In this document: one piece after another, positions 33,819 through 48,308 of the stretch
How the letters are laid out: each line of letters begins with the position of its first letter
How positions within the stretch are numbered: the stretch's first letter is position 1
Position numbers and translations under genes: made by a program
The notes under the pieces: generated by a model
Seen by the model: the letters and a program-made list of their open reading frames with translations, nothing else
Databases searched by the model: none
Told to the model about the DNA's origin: nothing
Source: Acidimicrobiia bacterium
GTDB lineage: Bacteria > Actinomycetota > Acidimicrobiia > Spongiisociales > ZC4RG35
DNA length: 48,570 bases
NCBI GenBank assembly: GCA_012270885.1
Contig: JAAXHN010000009.1
Coordinates: 1 to 48,570, forward strand
Direction: 5' to 3'

Positions 33819-34628
33819 TCACCGTGCGGTGACGGACTGCTCTCTCCAGTCGGCTAATGGATCGATCCATAGTTGAGCGTCGGGGATCTCGGTGACGATG
33901 GTGGCCGGCCAGGAGGGATCGTAGGAACGGGGGGAACTGATTCTCTCCGCGGCGGGACGTTTCTCCGCTCCGAGGCAGACCATCACCGCCGACCTGCTCA
34001 ACTCGGCGATGGTGCCTATCCCCACCGTCACTCCGTGGGTCGGGACTTCGTCCATCGAATCGAATTCCGGAAATGTCCTCAGGTTGTCGGTGCGGGTCGG
34101 GGTGGAGAGTTCCACAATCCGGGTGGTCGAGTCCCGGGGGCTGCCGGAGGGGTTGAACCCGACGTGGCCGTCCGAAGCCCCGCTGGCCAGGAGGAACAGG
34201 TCGATTCCCCCGGCGTCGGCGATGCGGCGGTCGTAGGCCGCGGGATCGGCCGGGTCCGGCATCCAGATGCGGTCTCTCCCCGGTGCGCCCGGCAGATGTG
34301 CCAGGGGTTTGCCGATCTCCTCTGTGGCGAAGCGACGGCAGGAGTAGTGGGCGTCGATCGGGACATGGAGGTATCCGCTGCGGTTCTGGATGACGTAGTC
34401 ATCCATCATCACCACAACCAAAGGTGAAAGGCCCACCGGCTGTTGGGCCACCACCTTGGGAAGGGCGCGGTAGGTGGAGAGGAGGCTTCTCCCGCCCGGA
34501 CAGCCCAGAAGGTAGTTCCTCCCCTGCCAGCCTGCCCGACGGACGCCGTCCACGATCCTGCTGGCCAGGGCCCAACCCAGTGATTTCTCGTCCTCGAAGA
34601 TCCGTGGGGTGAGAGCTGGAGGTGACAT
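33819..34628 (-). CDS. Glucosamine-6-phosphate deaminase/6-phosphogluconolactonase-like protein (divergent NagB fold)
   Basis: LLGCPGGRSLLSTYRAL, VVVMMDDYV, GASDGHVGFNPSGSPRDSTTRIVELS; start ATG 34628, overlapping the upstream stop. Confidence 0.8.
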   Translation of the reverse strand: MSPPALTPRIFEDEKSLGWALASRIVDGVRRAGWQGRNYLLGCPGGRSLLSTYRALPKVVAQQPVGLSPLVVVMMDDYVIQNRSGYLHVPIDAHYSCRRFATEEIGKPLAHLPGAPGRDRIWMPDPADPAAYDRRIADAGGIDLFLLASGASDGHVGFNPSGSPRDSTTRIVELSTPTRTDNLRTFPEFDSMDEVPTHGVTVGIGTIAELSRSAVMVCLGAEKRPAAERISSPRSYDPSWPATIVTEIPDAQLWIDPLADWREQSVTAR

Positions 34629-35539
34629 CAGGACTCTCCGGATAATCCTTTTTCCACCTGGCGTACCCACGCCAGATTCCTGGTTTGCACACCGGCGGCG
34701 GAACGGAGTCCAGCCTCGGAACAAATCGGCGCCCGGTCCTGTTCGACCACCACCCAACCCCGGTACCCGGCTTCCGACAGCTGAACCAGGAACTGCCCCA
34801 GTGGGAGGTCGCCTTCTCCGAGCGGGACGGAGACATCCGCCCACCACACATCGAAGTCATCCCGCCCCCGGGACTTTGCCTCCTCTAGGACTTCGTGACG
34901 CACGTCCTTGAGATGGATGTGGTTGATCCGCTCCCGCCAGGCCGCGAAGCGCTCCAGTATGTCCCCGCCGCCCAGGGCGATGTGGCCGGTGTCGAAGGTG
35001 AGATCGATGTCGGTGAGTTCCAGGAGCCTCTCGACCTCGTCCGGGCTCTCCACGTAGGTGCTGATGTGGGGATGGAAGGACGGGACCAAGCCCCGCCGGC
35101 GGATCTCGTCCGCCATCCAGTGGGCGGCGGCGCACAGTTCCTCGAAGGCCTCAGGGGCGAGCGCATGGGTGGGATCGTCGCCCCGGGCGGGATGGCGGAG
35201 CAGGAAATCGCTGCCCTCGTCGGCGAGGATGGCCAGACGGGGTCCGGCGCCGGCTTCCTCCAACTCCCGGAGGGCTTCTTCCATGCGGTGTTCATCACCG
35301 ATCCGTAGTTCGGGGTCCGCGAAGTGGATGGGGATGTAGATGCCCACCGGGACCAGGCCGTGCTTTTCGAAGAGCCGGGCTGCGGTGCCCGGAGGCCCGG
35401 CGTACCCGGCGGGTGGTAACTCCGCACCGTCGTAGCCCGAGGAAGCCATGGCGGCCACCAGGTGATCGGGTGACAACCCGCTGCCTGCTTCCGGAGGTCG
35501 GTAGACGCCGAAGCTCACCGGTGCGGCGCCGACCTTCAT
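34628..35539 (-). CDS. Sugar phosphate isomerase/epimerase, TIM barrel (IolE/IolI-like)
   Basis: GYDGAELPPAGY, FHPHISTYVESPDEVERLLELTDIDLTFDTGHIALGGGD, INHIHLKDV, GWVVVEQD. Confidence 0.88.
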   Translation of the reverse strand: MKVGAAPVSFGVYRPPEAGSGLSPDHLVAAMASSGYDGAELPPAGYAGPPGTAARLFEKHGLVPVGIYIPIHFADPELRIGDEHRMEEALRELEEAGAGPRLAILADEGSDFLLRHPARGDDPTHALAPEAFEELCAAAHWMADEIRRRGLVPSFHPHISTYVESPDEVERLLELTDIDLTFDTGHIALGGGDILERFAAWRERINHIHLKDVRHEVLEEAKSRGRDDFDVWWADVSVPLGEGDLPLGQFLVQLSEAGYRGWVVVEQDRAPICSEAGLRSAAGVQTRNLAWVRQVEKGLSGES

Positions 35540-36666
35540 AGACGCCCTCCCGCCTCGCCTCCTGCGGCCAGCCCGTCTTTGCGGGCCAGCGCGGCCACCA
35601 TCTCCTGCAGGAATGCGGTGTCGTCCCGGGCGCCCAGGGCATCGGTGGGGTGATCGCCGGTGGTTATGGCTCTGTGGAAGTTTCGCAGTTCTCTCAGGAA
35701 GGCCGACTCCTCCCCGCCTGTGTGGCGGGCGACGGTGTCCCGGCTCTTGACGGTCAAGGTTGCCGCTCTATCACGCAGATAGGCGTTAGGGAACCGGAGT
35801 TCGAGCGATCCCCGGGTTCCGTGGGCCTCGAAGGACTCCCGGTATGCAGGCGAGGAGGGAAGCCACAGCCAGGTCATCTCCGTTGTGGTCTGGTCGGGAT
35901 ACCGGCCCCGGGCCAGAAGGCAGGGAGGTTGGTCCGCGGGCCGGGGCGGCGACGGGGGCCAGAGGTCGGCGGACTTCAGCCGGGGCAGTCCTCCCATCAC
36001 GTCCCGGAGGAAGGAGACGGTGTGGATGAAAGAGGCCGCCAGCACTTCCCGGTAGAGCCGTCCCCATTGTCCGGATAGCTCTCCCAGCGCCTCGGCGGTT
36101 CGCCGCTCCTCGAAGGCGGCCGCATCCAACAAGACCGCGGGATCGGCGTCATCGAATCGGAGCGTCTCCGCCGGTCCTACACAGACCGAGTCGTCCGGGT
36201 GGTAGACAGTGTGGCGGACAAGCCGCAGATCGCCGATGGCTCCCAGTCCCGCCCGCAGGTCGGGGAGGACCCCCTCGTGGAGCTTCATGTAGCCGACCTG
36301 GAGCACCAGACCCTTGCTGGCGGCCATGCCATGAAGCCGCTCGGCGCCTTCCACGGTGAGGCACAGGGGCTTCTCCGCGAAAACGTGGCGTCCGGCCCTG
36401 AGGGCCCCTTCGGCGATCTCCTCATGGGATCCCGTAGTGAGAACCAGCACCCCTTCGACATCGGGACGGGCGCAGACCTCCGGCCAATCCGTGGAGGTGA
36501 AGACCCCACCGGGAAGCCGGTCGGCGACCGCTCGGGTGAGGCGAGGCGAGATGTCGGCCACCGCCGTCACCCTGAACAGACTGTCGAGCCGAGCCAGGTT
36601 GGGGAGGTGCTGGATCTGAGCGATGCTTCCCAGCCCGATCAACGCCACGGGGATACGCCGTCTCAC
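35536..36666 (-). CDS. Gfo/Idh/MocA family oxidoreductase
   Basis: IPVALIGLGSIAQIQHLPNLARLDSLFRVTAVADISP, GRHVFAEKPLCLTVEGAERL. Confidence 0.92.
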   Translation of the reverse strand: MRRRIPVALIGLGSIAQIQHLPNLARLDSLFRVTAVADISPRLTRAVADRLPGGVFTSTDWPEVCARPDVEGVLVLTTGSHEEIAEGALRAGRHVFAEKPLCLTVEGAERLHGMAASKGLVLQVGYMKLHEGVLPDLRAGLGAIGDLRLVRHTVYHPDDSVCVGPAETLRFDDADPAVLLDAAAFEERRTAEALGELSGQWGRLYREVLAASFIHTVSFLRDVMGGLPRLKSADLWPPSPPRPADQPPCLLARGRYPDQTTTEMTWLWLPSSPAYRESFEAHGTRGSLELRFPNAYLRDRAATLTVKSRDTVARHTGGEESAFLRELRNFHRAITTGDHPTDALGARDDTAFLQEMVAALARKDGLAAGGEAGGRL

Positions 36667-36678
36667 TCCGCGGTCCCC

Positions 36679-38637
<1,959 letters not shown>

Positions 38638-40562: not shown

Positions 40563-42194
40563 ATGACCGAGCACCAGCCAGAGACAACTTCCGGAATACC
40601 TCTCAAGCTCCTGTACGGGCCGGATGACGTGCCCACCGACATCTGGGAGGCCCTCGCCACCCCGCCCGGGAGAGCGCCCTATCTGCGGGGCGCCTATCCG
40701 CGCATGTACCGGGACCGGCCGTGGAGGATCTTCCAGCTCTCGGGATACGGTAACCCCGAGGACATGAACGAGCGGCTCAAATTCCTCTTGTTCGAGGCGG
40801 GGGAGACGGGGATCATTATCAAGCACGACCGGATGACCGACGACCATCTCTACGACGTCGACCACCCCGAGATCGTGGAACGCCGGGAGGACGTGGGCCT
40901 GACCGGCACGGTCACGGTTGGCTTGCGGGACTACGAGACCATCCTCTCCGACCTGCCTCTCGAGTCCATCTACGCCAAGCCGGGAGGGGGAGTCCCCCAG
41001 TCCGCGGTGTACACCCTTCCCTCCTACTGGTCGGTGGCCAGCCGCCGGGGGATACCGCTCGAGAAGCTGGCTGGCACCGGGCAGAGCGACTTCTTCCTTA
41101 CCTACCTGGGGTGCCCCACCAAGGAGCAGATCCCGCCCGAGGCGGCGATCCGGTTCAATCTGGATCTGATCGAGTGGTGCTCGGAGCGAATGCCCCGCTG
41201 GGTACCGGTCTCCATCGCCGGTTACAACGCAGCCGACAGCGGACTCTCCGCTCACCAGGAACTAGGAGCTGTGATGGCCAACGCCGTCCAGTACCTGGAC
41301 ATGATCGCCGCCCGGGGGAAGGTGGACGTGGAGCGGCTGGCCCACCGGATCGGAGGGGTGAACTTCCGGGTCTCGATGGAGGTCTTCGAGGACGCCGCAA
41401 AGCTGCGGGCGGCCCGCAAGATGTGGTCGGACCTGCTGGGAGAGCGTTACGGGATCACCGACGAGAAGGCCCGGCAGATGAGGATCCACGTGGTGACCGC
41501 CGGGAGCGCCATGACCTACCAGGAGCCATTCAACAACATCGTGCGGGGGACCTTGATGGCGCTGTTCTCGGTCCTGGGAGGCACCCAGTCGCTGGGAGTC
41601 TCCGGCTACGACGAGGCGATGTCCATCCCGTCCGATCACGCCCATCTGATGTCCATCCGCATCCAGCAGATTCTCCAGAACGAGATAAACCTGCGGGAGA
41701 TCGCCGATCCCTTGGGCGGGAGTTACTACGTCGAGTCGCTCACGGGAGAACTGGAACAGAGGGGTTGGGAGTTTTTCCGCCAGATCCAGGACCGCGGGGG
41801 CTTTCTGGCCGTGCTGGACGACGGGTTCCTCCTGGAATGCGCCGAGGAGAACAACCAACAGATCGCGGCGGGATTGGAGTCGGGCGAACGGGCGATCGTG
41901 GGAGTCAACACCCACACCATCGACGATCCCATCATGGAGGTCGAAGCCTTCGAGGGGCGCTCGGGCGCCGAGACCTGGGAGATGGCGATGGAGCGCCTTT
42001 CTGATCTGCGTCGCACCCGTCACCGCCGGGGCGCCGTGGAAGCCCTGCGTCACCTGGAGGAGGTGTGCCGGAACGACTCGATCAACGCCATCCCCGCCTT
42101 CATGGAGGCGGTGAGCGCCGATGCATCCATAGGGGAGATCGGGGACGTGCTGCGGGAGACCTTTGGAGACTGGCAGGTCCCGATCGGTGTCTGA
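40563..42194 (+). CDS. Adenosylcobalamin-dependent acyl-CoA mutase, large (catalytic) subunit, atypical
   Basis: APYLRGAYPRMYRDRPWRIFQLSGYG, SIAGYNAADSGLSAHQELGAVMANAVQYLD, AGSAMTYQEPFNNIVRGTLMALFSVLGGTQSLGVSGYDEAMSIPSDHAHLMSIRIQQILQNE, DPLGGSYYVESLT. Confidence 0.9.
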   Translation: MTEHQPETTSGIPLKLLYGPDDVPTDIWEALATPPGRAPYLRGAYPRMYRDRPWRIFQLSGYGNPEDMNERLKFLLFEAGETGIIIKHDRMTDDHLYDVDHPEIVERREDVGLTGTVTVGLRDYETILSDLPLESIYAKPGGGVPQSAVYTLPSYWSVASRRGIPLEKLAGTGQSDFFLTYLGCPTKEQIPPEAAIRFNLDLIEWCSERMPRWVPVSIAGYNAADSGLSAHQELGAVMANAVQYLDMIAARGKVDVERLAHRIGGVNFRVSMEVFEDAAKLRAARKMWSDLLGERYGITDEKARQMRIHVVTAGSAMTYQEPFNNIVRGTLMALFSVLGGTQSLGVSGYDEAMSIPSDHAHLMSIRIQQILQNEINLREIADPLGGSYYVESLTGELEQRGWEFFRQIQDRGGFLAVLDDGFLLECAEENNQQIAAGLESGERAIVGVNTHTIDDPIMEVEAFEGRSGAETWEMAMERLSDLRRTRHRRGAVEALRHLEEVCRNDSINAIPAFMEAVSADASIGEIGDVLRETFGDWQVPIGV

Positions 42195-42612
42195 GCCCGG
42201 ATCGAGCCCTCTCCCCCCGGCGCGGGTGCTGGTCGCCAAGAGCAGCCTGGACGGCCACTGGCGGGGAGTGGCGGTGGTGGCCCGGGCCCTCCGCGAGGCG
42301 GGATTCGAGGTGATCCTGGGAGGGATGCTCCGTCCCAGCGAGATGGCGAGCGTGGCCGCCGCCGAGGACGTGGACCTGGTGGGCATCAATGTCGGCGGCC
42401 GGGTGGAGGTGGTGGAGAGAGCGCTGGACGAGATGGAGGCGGCGGGATTGGGCGACGTCCCGGTGTTCGTGGGGGGGACCGTGCCTCCCCAGGCCATTCC
42501 CCGGCTGACCGACCGGGGGGTGGGGGTGTTCCCCCCGGGGAGTTCCCTCTCGGCGATCGTGGAGGAGGCCCGCCGGCTCACCGGCCGAGCTTTCCCCGCT
42601 CAGAGGCTTTAG
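42187..42612 (+). CDS. Cobalamin-binding (B12-binding) small subunit of the acyl-CoA mutase
   Basis: VLVAKSSLDGHWRGVAVVARALREAGFEVILGGMLRPSE (DxHxxG = DGHWRG); VFVGGTVP; GTG start overlapping the stop of the large subunit. Confidence 0.9.
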   Translation: MSEPGSSPLPPARVLVAKSSLDGHWRGVAVVARALREAGFEVILGGMLRPSEMASVAAAEDVDLVGINVGGRVEVVERALDEMEAAGLGDVPVFVGGTVPPQAIPRLTDRGVGVFPPGSSLSAIVEEARRLTGRAFPAQRL

Positions 42613-42673: not shown

Positions 42674-44407
42674 ATGGTGATGACCCCTAGCGAGGCTTTG
42701 GTAGAGACCCTCCGAGTGGAGAGAGTGACCGAGATCCCTGGGATTGTCGGATCGGCTTTCATGGATGCACTTGACCTTCTCCCCGCAGCCGGCATCCGGT
42801 TCGTGCCGGTCCGTCACGAACAGAACGCCGCCCACATGGCCGACACCTACGCCCGGACGACCGGCCGGCCCTCAGTTTGCACCGCCCAGAACGGGCCGGG
42901 GATCACCAACATGGTCACCGGCATCGCCGCCGCCTATCACGCCCACTCCCCGGTGGTGATCCTCACCCCTTCGGCAACTTCGGGCTCGGTGGGACTGGAC
43001 GGATTCCAGGAAGTGGAACAGCTCTCCATATTTCGCTCCATCACCAAATTCCAACTCCAGGTTCCCCGCCCCGATCGCATGGCCGAATCGATACGGACCG
43101 CCTTCCGGATGGCCATGGCCCACCTCGGACCCGTCCAGGTGGACATCCCCCGCGACTTCTTCTATGGCGAGTCCCACGAAGACATCCTCGAGCCGAATCA
43201 GTACCGCTCCGAAGAGCGGGGTGCGGGCGATCCCGCCCTGTTAGACCGGGCTGCCGCCATCCTGTCGGAAGCCCGCAACCCGGTGATCGTGGCCGGGTAC
43301 GGAGCCGTGCTGTCGGGCGCCTACCAAGAGACGGCCCGGCTGGCCGAGCAACTCGGCGCGCCGGTGGCCGCTTCCTATCTCCACAACGACGCCTTCCCCT
43401 ACACCCACCCTCTCTCGGTGGGTCCCCTGGGCTACATGGGATCGAAGGCGGCCATGGAGCTTCTGTCCGAGGCCGATGTGGTGCTGATGCTGGGCTGTCG
43501 GATCAACGTGTTCGGCACGGTCCCCCAGTACGGTCTCGACTTCTATCCCCAATCGGCGAAGGTGGTGCAGATCGACATAGATCCCGAGCAGCTTGGCCGT
43601 TCCAAGCCCATCGAGTTGGGGATAATCGGCGACGCCCGCCAGGCCGCCGAGGCGATCTCGGCCCGTCTGGCCGCAGGCGGCGAACGCCCGGTGAACGGGG
43701 CGCGGCTGGACCACATCGCCGACGCCAAGGCCCGCTGGGAGAAGGAACTGTCGGCCCGCTCGGCTTCCGACTCGGCTCCCATCAGCCCTCGCCGGGCTCT
43801 CAGCGAATTGGCGGCCCAACTCACCGACGACACCTTCGTCACCACCGACATCGGCAACATCTGCTCGGTCTCCAACGGCTACCTTCGCTTCACCAAGCCC
43901 CGCCGGTTCATGGCCGCCATGGGCTTCGGGAACTGCGGGTTCGCCTATCCGGGGGCGTTGGGGGCCAAACTGGCCTCGCCGGGGTCGCCCGTGGTTGCAA
44001 TAGTCGGTGACGGCGCATGGGGGATGAGTCTCGCCGAGGTAATGACCGCGGTGGAGGAGGACCTGCCGGTGACTGCGGTGGTCTTCAACAACCAGCAGTG
44101 GGGAGCGGAGAAGCGCAACCAGATCGACTTCTACGACGACCGCTACGTGGGCACCAACATCGGACACGACCTGGGAGGATTCAATTTCGCCGAGATCGCC
44201 ACTGCCATGGGCGGGCGGGGGATCAGGGTGACCGACCCGGCCGACCTGAAGGACGCCTTCGGGGAGTCGATCGACCCCGAGGTGGCCACAGTGGTGGAGG
44301 TGATGGTCGACCCCGAGGAATTGGCCGAGCCCTTCCGCCGCGACGCCCTTCAGCAGCCCATCCGGCACCTGGACCGCTATCGGCATCTAGCCGCTGACAC
44401 AACCTAG
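42674..44407 (+). CDS. xsc: Thiamine-diphosphate enzyme, sulfoacetaldehyde acetyltransferase-like
   Basis: AQNGPGITNMVTGIAAAYHAHSPVVILTP, GFQEVEQL, GDGAWGMSLAEVMTAVEEDLPVTAVVFNNQQWGAEKRNQIDFYDDRYVGTN, FRRDALQQPIR are Xsc-like. Confidence 0.8.
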   Translation: MVMTPSEALVETLRVERVTEIPGIVGSAFMDALDLLPAAGIRFVPVRHEQNAAHMADTYARTTGRPSVCTAQNGPGITNMVTGIAAAYHAHSPVVILTPSATSGSVGLDGFQEVEQLSIFRSITKFQLQVPRPDRMAESIRTAFRMAMAHLGPVQVDIPRDFFYGESHEDILEPNQYRSEERGAGDPALLDRAAAILSEARNPVIVAGYGAVLSGAYQETARLAEQLGAPVAASYLHNDAFPYTHPLSVGPLGYMGSKAAMELLSEADVVLMLGCRINVFGTVPQYGLDFYPQSAKVVQIDIDPEQLGRSKPIELGIIGDARQAAEAISARLAAGGERPVNGARLDHIADAKARWEKELSARSASDSAPISPRRALSELAAQLTDDTFVTTDIGNICSVSNGYLRFTKPRRFMAAMGFGNCGFAYPGALGAKLASPGSPVVAIVGDGAWGMSLAEVMTAVEEDLPVTAVVFNNQQWGAEKRNQIDFYDDRYVGTNIGHDLGGFNFAEIATAMGGRGIRVTDPADLKDAFGESIDPEVATVVEVMVDPEELAEPFRRDALQQPIRHLDRYRHLAADTT

Positions 44408-44425: not shown

Positions 44426-45766
44426 ATGACCACCACTCTCACCACCAGCGCCCTGGCGCACACCGTCCTGCACTTCACTCCGGGGAAGCTGTTGCGGAGC
44501 GGCGCGGCGCCGATCTTCGTACGCGGGGAGGGCATCCGCATCTGGGACCAGGAGGGGAACTCCTACATCGACGGACTGGCCGGATTGTTCTCGGTCCAGA
44601 TCGGCCACGGCCGGGCTGACATCGCCGCCGCAGCCGGCGAGCAGATGAAGACCCTCGCCTACATGCCGTCGTGGTCGGCCACCACGCCGGCCACTATCGA
44701 GGCGTCTAATCTGATCGCCTCCCTCGCCCCTGGCGATCTGGATGTGGTGTTCCTGGTCTCCTCGGGGTCGGAAGCGGTGGAGTCGGCCATCAAATTCTCC
44801 CGCCAGTATCACTCGGCCCGCAACGAGCCACAGAGGGTGAAGGTGATCAGTCGCAACCTGGCCTATCACGGGACCACCATGGGGGCGCTGTCCGCCACCG
44901 GCCTCACCGGCATCCGGGAGGCCTACGGCCCGCTGCTGTACGGGTTCCGCAAGGTCCCCAACACGCTGGGGTTTGACGACGGGATGGAAGCGGCCGCCCG
45001 CGTGGAGGAGGCAATCGTGGAGGAGGGCCCCGAGTCGGTGGCCATGGTGTTGGCCGAGCCGGTGCAGAACGGTGGAGGCTCGATCGTACCCCCCGCCGGC
45101 TACTGGCAGGAACTGCGCCGCATCTGTGACCGCTACGGCGTGCTATTGTGCGCGGACGAGGTCATCAACGGGTTCGGACGCCTGGGAGAGTGGTTCGGGT
45201 CGGACGTGATGGGAGTGGTCCCTGACCTCCTTACCTTCGCCAAGGGCGCCACTTCATCTTACGCGCCGATCGGAGGGCTGTTGGTCCGCCAACCTGTCTT
45301 CGATGAACTGCTGGACTCCCACATCGGCATGTTCAACCACGGGGCCACCTGGGGAGGACATCCGGTGGTGGCCGCCACCTCAATCGCCAATCTCACCGCT
45401 CTCCGCGACGAGGACGCGGTGGGCAACGTGCGCGGCCTGGCCGGGCACTTCCGGGAGCAACTCGACCGGATGGCCGCCGGGCACCGTATGGTAAGCGAAG
45501 TGCGGGGCATGGGGTTCTTCTACGCAGTGGAACTGACCGCCGACCGGGAGACCGGGCGGCGCCTGACCCCCGAACAGGAGGCGGTGCTGTTGAAGGAGAC
45601 GCTCCCTCCCATCATGATGGAGGAGGGCCTCTACACCCGCGCCGACGACCGCGGGGAACCGAAGATTCTCCTGTGCCCGCCTCTGATCTCCACCCGCTCG
45701 GACATCGACGAGATGGTCTCGATGGTCGACCGGACCCTGGACCGGGCCGGCGCCATGGAGTGGTGA
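44426..45766 (+). CDS. Class III aminotransferase (taurine:pyruvate / omega-amino acid transaminase-like)
   Basis: GLFSVQIGHGRADIA, SSGSEAVESAIKFSRQYH, SRNLAYHGTTMGALSATG, LLCADEVINGFGRLGEWFGSD, FAKGATSSYAPIGG. Confidence 0.9.
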   Translation: MTTTLTTSALAHTVLHFTPGKLLRSGAAPIFVRGEGIRIWDQEGNSYIDGLAGLFSVQIGHGRADIAAAAGEQMKTLAYMPSWSATTPATIEASNLIASLAPGDLDVVFLVSSGSEAVESAIKFSRQYHSARNEPQRVKVISRNLAYHGTTMGALSATGLTGIREAYGPLLYGFRKVPNTLGFDDGMEAAARVEEAIVEEGPESVAMVLAEPVQNGGGSIVPPAGYWQELRRICDRYGVLLCADEVINGFGRLGEWFGSDVMGVVPDLLTFAKGATSSYAPIGGLLVRQPVFDELLDSHIGMFNHGATWGGHPVVAATSIANLTALRDEDAVGNVRGLAGHFREQLDRMAAGHRMVSEVRGMGFFYAVELTADRETGRRLTPEQEAVLLKETLPPIMMEEGLYTRADDRGEPKILLCPPLISTRSDIDEMVSMVDRTLDRAGAMEW

Positions 45767-45827: not shown

Positions 45828-47378
45828 ATGAGCATCAGCAACATCGCCGGGGTCGTCCGGCACCACGCCGCCGCACAGCCCGACAAGACCGCGCTGGTCT
45901 ACGGAACCGAAGAGGTCACTTTCGCCGAACTCGACGCACGCTCGAGCCGGACCGCCAACGCCATGGCGGCGGCCGGGGTGGGACACGGGGACCATGTCGG
46001 GTTCCTGGACAAGAACTGCATGGAGTTCTTCGACTTCCTGTTCGGCGCGGCCAAGCTGGGGGCCGTTCACGCCGGCATCAACTGGCGGCTGACGCCCCGA
46101 GAGATCACCGGCGTGGTGAACGACGCCGAGATCAAGCTGTTGATCGTGGGAGAGGAGTACGTACCCATCCTCGACGAGATAGCCGGTGACCTGAAAACGG
46201 TGGAGAAGATTCTGGTTGTGGGCGGCCACAGGAGCCACCAGTCCTTCGAGAAATGGCGCGACAGCCACCCCGACACCGATCCGGGAGGAGGAGCCGAAGG
46301 GGACGACACGGTGTTCCTGCTGTACTCCTCGGGCACCACCGGATTCCCCAAAGGCGTGATGATCCCCAACGACGCCTTCATGGAGCTGAAGAAGATGTGC
46401 TCGCCGATGTGGGGCTTCGACGGCGACTCGGTGAACCTGGTCAACCTCCCCATGTTCCACATCGGCGGGGTCGGTTGGTCGTGTCTGGGTTTGTACAACG
46501 GCAACACCTCGATCGTCGCCCGGGACAACATCCCGCAGTTGCTGGTGGACCTGACCGTCGACCATCAGGTCTCGAACGCCTTCCTGGTGCCGGTGCTGTT
46601 GCAGTTCATGCTGACCGTCCCGGGAGTGGAAGACGCCGACTTCTCGGCGCTCCGGACCATCGTCTACGGCGGCTCGCCCATCTCCGAAGAGGTGCTCAAC
46701 CAGTCCATCGAGGTGCTGGGCTGTGAGTTCGCGGGTGCCTACGGGCTCACGGAGTCCTGCAACGGCGTGACCACGCTCTTTCCCGACGAGCACGATCCCG
46801 GCGGCCCATATGCCTACCGGATGCTGTCGGTGGGCCGTCCCCATCCCAACGTGGAACTCAAGATCGTTGACCCGGTCTCGACCGAGGAACTGGGAACCGA
46901 CGACGTTGGCGAGATCTGGTTGCGCTCTCCCCAGTTGATGAGCGGCTACTGGAAGAACCCGCAGGCCACCGCCGAGACGGTCAATGCCGAGGGTTGGATG
47001 CGCACTGGAGACGCGGGATCGGTGGACGCCGACGGGTTCGTGTACATCCGGGACCGGATCAAGGACATGATCATCTCGGGCGGGGAGAACATCTACCCCG
47101 CCGAGGTTGAGAACGCCCTGATGGAGCATCCGGGGGTGGCCGACGTGGCCGTGATCGGCGTGCCCAGCGAGAGGTGGGGCGAGACGCCCCGGGCGGTGAT
47201 CGTCGCAGCCGGCGACGAGGCGCCCACCGAAGCCGAGATCATCGAGTTCTGCCGGAGCCGGATCGCCCACTACAAGTGTCCCACCTCGGTGGGGACCATC
47301 GACGCCATTCCCCGCAACCCGTCTGGAAAGATCCTCAAGGGCGACCTGCGGGACATGTACCTGGCGTCCCAGGGTTAG
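45828..47378 (+). CDS. AMP-forming acyl-CoA synthetase
   Basis: VFLLYSSGTTGFPKGVMIPN, GAYGLTESC, GWMRTGDAGSVDADGFVYIRDRIKDMIISGGENIYPAEVEN, PRNPSGKILK. Confidence 0.95.
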   Translation: MSISNIAGVVRHHAAAQPDKTALVYGTEEVTFAELDARSSRTANAMAAAGVGHGDHVGFLDKNCMEFFDFLFGAAKLGAVHAGINWRLTPREITGVVNDAEIKLLIVGEEYVPILDEIAGDLKTVEKILVVGGHRSHQSFEKWRDSHPDTDPGGGAEGDDTVFLLYSSGTTGFPKGVMIPNDAFMELKKMCSPMWGFDGDSVNLVNLPMFHIGGVGWSCLGLYNGNTSIVARDNIPQLLVDLTVDHQVSNAFLVPVLLQFMLTVPGVEDADFSALRTIVYGGSPISEEVLNQSIEVLGCEFAGAYGLTESCNGVTTLFPDEHDPGGPYAYRMLSVGRPHPNVELKIVDPVSTEELGTDDVGEIWLRSPQLMSGYWKNPQATAETVNAEGWMRTGDAGSVDADGFVYIRDRIKDMIISGGENIYPAEVENALMEHPGVADVAVIGVPSERWGETPRAVIVAAGDEAPTEAEIIEFCRSRIAHYKCPTSVGTIDAIPRNPSGKILKGDLRDMYLASQG

Positions 47379-47390
47379 GAAGGAGGCGCC

Positions 47391-48308
47391 ATGCACATAG
47401 GGGCGGTATTCCCTCAAATCGAGATCGGCTCCGACCGGGCCGCGGTCCGCGCCTGGACGGAGACCGCCGAAGGGCTGGGTTTCGACTCGATCCTCGTCTA
47501 CGAACACGTCCTGGGGGCGGACCCCTCCCGCCACGTTCTCACCGGCCCCTACACCCACACCGACGGCTTTCACGAGCCGTTCGTCCTGTTCGGGTACATG
47601 GCCGGGATAACCTCGCGGATAGAACTGTGGCTGGGAGTGCTGGTGCTGCCCCAGCGACAGACCGCCCTTGTGGCCAAGCAGGCCGCCACCCTGGACCTCC
47701 TGTCCGGCGAGCGGTTCACCCTGGGGGTGGGGGTGGGCTGGAACCAGGTCGAGTTCCAGGCCCTCGGCCAGGACTTCCGCACCCGCGGACGGCGGTTCGA
47801 GGAGCAGGTCCAGTTGCTCAACCGACTCTGGGCCCAGGAACTGGTCGACTTCGACGGCGAGTTCGACACGGTGGAGGGAGCGGGGATCAACCATCTGCCC
47901 AACCGGCGCATCCCGCTCTGGATCGGCGGCTGGGCCGACCCGGTGATGAAGCGGATCGGCTGGTGGGCCGACGGCTGGCTGGCCTCGGCCGGGTCCCTCA
48001 AGACCGCCCACCTGCCCGACCGGACCGGCAACACCGAAGGGCTTCGCAACCGGTTCAAACTGGTGGAGGAAGCCGCCCGCGAGAAGGGACGGGACCCCGC
48101 AGAGATCGGCTTGGGGATGCTGGTAGGCGAGGTTGGGTTCACCGGAAGGGTGGGATGGGATCCCGCCGAGTACGCCGAACGCACCCGGGTGTGGGGGACT
48201 GCCGGGGTCACCCATGCCTTTGTGGGAACGATGGGATATGACTTCACGGTCGACCAGCATCTTTCGGCCATGGAGGACTTCATGGCGGCCTACCGGAACG
48301 GCGGGTGA
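47391..48308 (+). CDS. LLM class (F420-type) oxidoreductase
   Basis: AEGLGFDSILVYEHVLG, LVAKQAATLDLLSGERFTLGVGVGWNQVEFQALGQDFRTRGRRFEEQV, PLWIGGW. Confidence 0.92.
   Translation: MHIGAVFPQIEIGSDRAAVRAWTETAEGLGFDSILVYEHVLGADPSRHVLTGPYTHTDGFHEPFVLFGYMAGITSRIELWLGVLVLPQRQTALVAKQAATLDLLSGERFTLGVGVGWNQVEFQALGQDFRTRGRRFEEQVQLLNRLWAQELVDFDGEFDTVEGAGINHLPNRRIPLWIGGWADPVMKRIGWWADGWLASAGSLKTAHLPDRTGNTEGLRNRFKLVEEAAREKGRDPAEIGLGMLVGEVGFTGRVGWDPAEYAERTRVWGTAGVTHAFVGTMGYDFTVDQHLSAMEDFMAAYRNGG

Follow-up and report, generated by a model that had tools for sequence, protein, structure and literature searches.

Two overlapping genes in the window (the whole 48,570-nucleotide stretch of DNA analysed here) are predicted to encode an active, split AdoCbl-dependent mutase on an undescribed deep branch of the methylmalonyl-CoA mutase (MCM) superfamily, which we call the N244 clade, with a branched or cyclic acyl-CoA as the probable substrate. 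We put the probability of this joint reading at about 0.6; on this reading the kind of enzyme is familiar and the deep subfamily is new. The fold, the two subunits, the B12 ligand motif, the monophyly of the clade, the rebuilt active site, the purifying selection and the ligase and MeaB neighbours are known by computation. The earlier note on this DNA had proposed a split mutase with an undescribed substrate, distinct from MCM, isobutyryl-CoA mutase (ICM) and 2-hydroxyisobutyryl-CoA mutase (HCM), and the trees and the residues at positions 89, 207 and 244 support that proposal as an inference from sequence. In the open-licence literature, a scope outside which most subscription journals lie, we found no description of the N244 group.

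The gene pair and its family

The two genes overlap, as had been claimed before, by 8 bases (GTGTCTGA): the large-subunit gene ends GGT GTC TGA, and the GTG that starts the small-subunit gene lies within it. The large subunit matches PF01642 (E 2.4e-133, 446 bits, cut-off 22) and TIGR00641 (383 bits, over the cut-off of 304), so the family match is not due to chance, and the small subunit matches PF02310 (E 4.2e-17) and TIGR00640 (96.8 bits, over 57.5). Pfam and NCBIfam thus assign the N-terminal and C-terminal (B12) domains of MCM, without any equivalog match; against NF006944, the equivalog for MCM, the score is 340 bits for a cut-off of 876. The closest PDB entry to the large subunit is HcmA (4r3u, E 1.8e-86), and an AF2 model of mediocre quality (pTM 0.75, pLDDT 72) superimposes on it with a TM-score of 0.79.

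Features of the window that bear on the split mutase (residue equivalents in MCM numbering)
Feature	Position	Strand	Evidence
Mutase large subunit (TIM barrel, substrate-binding), 543 aa	40563..42194	+	PF01642, TIGR00641, 4r3u
Arg55-Ile-Phe57-Gln-Leu59, at Thr85, Arg87 and Tyr89 of MCM	40725..40739	+	alignment
Cys184-Pro185, at Arg207 of MCM (alignment uncertain by one residue)	41112..41117	+	alignment
Asn222 (AAC codon), at catalytic His244 of MCM	41226..41228	+	alignment; Asn in 23/23 clade members
Glu351, Glu370 of MCM, retained	41613..41615	+	alignment
Mutase small subunit (B12-binding), 141 aa, GTG start	42187..42612	+	PF02310, TIGR00640
Sulfoacetaldehyde acetyltransferase (Xsc) homolog, ThDP enzyme	42674..44407	+	TIGR03457 783 bits, over cut-off 676
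Class III (omega) aminotransferase	44426..45766	+	PF00202 E 5.6e-82; NF005102 558 bits, just under 574
AMP-forming acyl-CoA ligase	45828..47378	+	PF00501/PF13193; NF004837 523 bits, cut-off 476
Luciferase-like (LLM) oxidoreductase	47391..48308	+	ORF; resembles neighbour ORFs in L034 and L045

The window corresponds to contig 106 of a 2.6-Mb MAG. Its relatives in the genus are the MAGs RHO1, RHO3, SB0665 (Acidimicrobiia bacterium) and OM1, which to judge by their names come from sponge metagenomes, and the source bacterium is probably sponge-associated. The same genome encodes MeaB as well as a second, MCM-type enzyme (702 bits to TIGR00641), which makes the N244 copy dispensable as an MCM.

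Active site of the large subunit

Residues were mapped by HMMER alignments to HcmA (4r3u) and to the human, P. shermanii and M. tuberculosis MCMs, and by a MAFFT alignment of 59 sequences; the two agree on the changed active-site positions. SIAGYN in place of SISGYH is found at residues 217–222, with Asn222 aligned on His244, and both other altered motif readings of the earlier note, TGQSDFFLTYLGCPTKEQ and IIIKHDRMTDDHLYDVDHP, are present. The changes listed there are real, and the list was incomplete: positions 85, 87, 89, 114, 117, 164, 166, 285, 287, 330 and 364–366 are altered as well. Neither the His nor the Arg is retained elsewhere in the alignments, and no clade member has an Arg at position 207.

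We take the CoA channel of MCM to be formed by positions 85, 87, 114, 164, 195, 283 and 285, the carboxylate clamp by 89 and 207, the contact to the thioester carbonyl by 244, and the deoxyadenosyl contacts by 366 and 370. The changes to Arg55, Phe57 and Leu59 are invariant within the clade. The channel serines 114, 164 and 285 are Ile (Ile85), Lys and Gly in the window protein, Phe117 has become His88, Gln330 has become Val311, and His364-Thr-Asn366 reads Gly345-Val-Ser347. What the clade keeps is Gln197, Thr195, Tyr243, His328, Gln361, Ser362 and Glu370. Arg85, His117, His or Lys at 164 and a bulky Tyr162 have been gained in all or nearly all members. Residues at 166, 207, 285, 287 and 330 are smaller than in ordinary mutases, and a simple reading of the barrel as plugged was dropped because these other channel positions became smaller.

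At positions 89, 207 and 244 the window protein has the signature of neither MCM, HCM nor ICM. Where MCM has the Tyr89/Arg207 clamp and His244, it has Leu59, Cys184/Pro185 and Asn222; it likewise lacks the Ile89/Gln207 pair with His244 of HCM and the Phe89/Gln207 pair with His244 of ICM and IcmF, the last of which is present in the IcmF sequences aligned.

The B12-binding subunit

The DxHxxG motif had been described as intact, and indeed all small subunits aligned read LDGHWRG, within a KxxxDGHWRG that is invariant in the 19 distinct sequences. The earlier note overlooked that the SxL motif of the B12 domain, which is usual in the MCM superfamily and is not required by the profile, is replaced by NVG. 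The references read VGLSMLSGSH and VGVSSLAAGH in this region, the clade VGxNVGG or VGLSVGG, and its basal members VGLNIGG. Because of this replacement the lower-ligand pocket may differ from that of the reference mutases.

Phylogenetic position and conservation

In three trees of different sampling the clade forms one side of a 100/100 branch, on a long stem. MCM (itself 100/100) and IcmF form separate clades elsewhere, so that the window protein falls outside the characterised MCM and ICM clades in all three. HCM is represented by one sequence, and the sampling includes no verified ethylmalonyl-CoA mutase (ECM); IcmF, added as a control, shows the expected Phe89/Gln207 signature. A sisterhood with the single HcmA sequence is not recovered in the trees and is not rejected either: constraining the clade to group with HcmA costs 7.2 log units (p-AU 0.215). 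Basal relatives at 42–43% identity (two full, one partial) come from a 6.8-Mb Proteobacteria MAG (G044), and have Asn244, Arg85, Leu89 and Gly285 in common with the clade.

Most of the window's replacements are fixed in 23 proteins (identity at least 55%) that span three phyla, with members in Acidimicrobiia and a second actinobacterial family, in Ktedonobacterales and in Alphaproteobacteria, and the large-subunit dN/dS between species of the genus is 0.05–0.08. The motif changes are therefore not decay. Asn244, Arg85, Phe87, Leu89 and Gly285 are invariant (23 of 23); His244, Thr85, Arg87 and Ser285 are each at least 90% conserved among the 32 outgroup members. Across the 158 columns that are at least 90% conserved in these 32 mutases, 51 have switched in the clade and 70 are kept. 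Of the 12 substrate contacts among these columns, 7 have switched (85, 87, 114, 164, 166, 244 and 285; Fisher p 0.049, for a provisional list of contacts). The statistical case for targeted change is thus modest, and the residue-by-residue case is clear.

In each of the groups sampled, the enzyme is rare. Within the genus it is encoded by all six genomes (94–97% identity), and three of them have an additional paralog at ~60%. Members at 55–67% identity occur in nine further genomes of the class sample (n = 296), and one more was found in the phylum (G840). A Ktedonobacterales MAG (L032) is the sole match among 301 sampled genomes of its phylum, and three Alphaproteobacteria carry clade members. 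Plasmid records hold no clade member, the best match there being ~35% identical.

Other divergent mutases

The MAG with the basal relatives (OS_PC_MetaG.mb.36) encodes ~20 large subunits of the MCM superfamily (loci L041, L050, L052, L056 and L103–L117). Outside the N244 clade, some of these keep His at position 244, and others carry Asp, Phe or another Asn there, in groups that are each monophyletic. The Phe244 group (L108 and L109 in G044; L118 and L119 in G043 and G042) is monophyletic at 100/100, has Ile or Leu at Gln197 and His at Gln330, and extends to two of the Alphaproteobacteria. Every one of these active-site types retains Glu370. Given the G044 groups, the superfamily holds several unexplored active-site types, of which the N244 clade is the best sampled here. 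A plasmid of Sphingobium sp. TomTYG65 (L123) encodes a highly divergent split mutase together with a GTPase, next to genes for a P450 and a TonB receptor; the active-site letters of this mutase are unlike those of every other type seen.

Gene neighbourhood

The genes downstream of the small subunit lie on the same strand with gaps of 13–62 bases. Their order is kept in two further loci (L029 and L037), where a small protein and a thiolase-like protein follow, and the counterpart of the LLM gene at L034:15688-16731 matches PF00296. To compare neighbours more widely, the fetched loci were clustered by similarity in 12 lineage groups, with selected genes checked against Pfam. The most recurrent neighbour is an acyl-CoA ligase, near the mutase in 10 of the 12 groups and, in seven, directly behind the small subunit or separated from it by at most one TetR gene. 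MeaB lies beside the mutase in L075 (PF03308, 258 bits) and, by similarity clustering, in L033, L045 and L076. Other neighbours are P450, LLM, acyl-CoA dehydrogenase, enoyl-CoA hydratase, thiolase with a ChsH2-like protein, a PaaA/C-like protein, aldehyde dehydrogenase, M20- or AspA-type hydrolases and an ABC importer. A gene resembling methylmalonyl-CoA epimerase directly follows the basal small subunits (L079:4807-5250 and L078:7869-8303; TIGR03081 87 bits, below the cut-off of 115). The neighbourhoods vary by lineage and look like the aerobic breakdown of branched, cyclic or terpenoid- or steroid-like acids.

The Xsc homolog adjoins the mutase only in the window's genus and is near it in no other lineage examined; in family f6 Xsc is located elsewhere, and one genome (G029) has Xsc without an N244 mutase. 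It therefore does not define the mutase, and we rejected it as a general clue to the substrate. This copy is the only Xsc homolog of the genus; a search of 138 genomes of the order gave Xsc homologs in 15 others, to which it is 55–58% identical. A nitroreductase-family neighbour was considered as BluB and likewise rejected (73 bits for a cut-off of 150).

A protein of 230–246 aa is encoded immediately upstream of the mutase in all three Alphaproteobacteria (L033:9207-9944, L045:2751-3449, L085:10949-11674), and the L033 copy has no Pfam match. On the opposite strand of the window, inosose-dehydratase-like (PF01261) and Gfo/Idh/MocA genes at 34628-36666 score below equivalog cut-offs, and an acetoacetyl-CoA synthetase (36679-38637) adjoins these genes.

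Proposed function and alternatives

If the enzyme is the acyl-CoA mutase that we propose, the ligase would make the CoA thioester and MeaB would load AdoCbl onto the mutase. Homolysis of the Co–C bond would yield 5'-deoxyadenosyl and substrate radicals, through which the thioester carbonyl would migrate between adjacent carbons, and Asn222 would take over the hydrogen bond of His244 to that carbonyl. The class of the substrate, its nature as a CoA ester and the direction of the reaction are what we infer. With Leu and hydrophobic or small residues in place of the Tyr89/Arg207 clamp, a dicarboxylyl-CoA is an improbable substrate, and a branched or cyclic acyl-CoA from a catabolic pathway is the probable one. 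As to the altered chemistry raised in the earlier note, Asn can still hydrogen-bond to the thioester carbonyl, and Glu370 is kept. Counting against our explanation are the changes to Asn366 and to the SxL motif and the differences in neighbourhood among lineages. That the substrate is a CoA ester is also less than certain, since 7 of the 12 conserved substrate contacts are replaced. It is conceivable, and in our view unlikely, that the barrel has lost the known mode of accepting CoA thioesters and that the enzyme carries out a rearrangement undescribed for AdoCbl enzymes on a new kind of substrate. This could be a free acid, an acid on another carrier, or a bulky cyclic carboxylate, for instance one derived from a terpenoid or steroid.

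In one such alternative the substrate is a free carboxylate, as in glutamate mutase, which would be bound by Arg55, His88 and Lys/His139, with the ligase activating the product. The loss of the channel residues Thr85, Arg87, Ser114, Ser164 and Ser285, the gain of Arg85, His117, His/Lys164 and Tyr162, and the sugar-type ABC importer genes that adjoin the mutase in L075 would all fit. However, the adjacent ligase favours a CoA ester, the smaller residues suggest that bulk was redistributed and the channel not simply plugged, and the epimerase-like gene after the basal members fits a thioester, which together make a free acid rather improbable.

A poor candidate is a drifted enzyme of known type, HCM- or ICM-like, that acts on the same substrates and tolerates its active-site changes. 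HcmA is the closest solved structure, its sisterhood with the clade is not rejected (p-AU 0.215), and the H244A mutant of MCM, solved as 1e1c, reportedly retains reduced activity. Drift would nevertheless have to account for replacements that are fixed, specific and common to three phyla, for a mere 36–38% identity to the ordinary mutases of relatives, and for residues at 89 and 207 that match neither signature. We consider it very improbable that the protein has lost catalysis or plays a structural part, as the beta chain of P. shermanii MCM does: His244 and Arg207 are lost and SxL is altered, but the protein is paired with a B12 subunit whose DxHxxG is intact, has MeaB neighbours, keeps Glu370, Gln197 and His328, is under strong purifying selection, and is not accompanied by an intact MCM alpha chain in any of the loci compared. 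In the genus, Xsc and the aminotransferase sit between the small subunit and the ligase; they suggest that taurine is used close by, and one study describes taurine as a key intermediate in at least one sponge symbiosis (PMC10356861). Yet the distribution of Xsc given above makes a sulfonate pathway, in which the Xsc homolog would be supplied with a sulfonate-bearing acyl-CoA made or processed by the mutase, the least probable alternative of all.

Comparison with known systems

For the proposed acyl-CoA mutase, the gene neighbourhoods offer a direct route to a new reaction. Since profile libraries place the protein at superfamily level only, annotation pipelines will probably label it 'methylmalonyl-CoA mutase', which would probably mislead pathway reconstructions. 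To our knowledge, few substrates of AdoCbl acyl-CoA mutases have been described. Discussions of specificity usually centre on positions 89 and 207 and treat the other residues of the site as constant; in the N244 clade almost all of the site has been exchanged as a set over three phyla while the core radical machinery is kept, a natural experiment on what catalysis needs.

Glutamate mutase is also a two-subunit AdoCbl mutase and gives a distant fold match (1cb7_B, E 7.6e-5), but at 13% identity it belongs to another family. With ECM the likeness is, as far as known, only that of the superfamily; an unannotated homolog on a Methylobacterium plasmid (L121) keeps His244, Arg87, Ser114 and Arg207. 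IcmF (isobutyryl-/pivalyl-CoA mutase) resembles the window protein in its hydrophobic residue at 89 and in a presumed non-dicarboxylic substrate, whereas it is one fused protein with Phe89/Gln207 that keeps His244 and the channel serines. MCM (P. shermanii 1req, human, M. tuberculosis) has in common the fold, Glu370, Gln197, His328, DxHxxG and the association with MeaB, and is a separate clade from which the window protein differs in the missing clamp, the Asn for His244 and the rebuilt channel. The closest parallel is HcmA/HcmB, with the same split layout, the same fold, the closest solved sequence and likewise no Tyr89/Arg207 pair; HcmA, however, keeps Thr85, Arg87, Ser114, Ser164, His244, Gln330 and the HTN of 364–366, and has Ile89 and Gln207 where the window protein has Leu and Cys/Pro.
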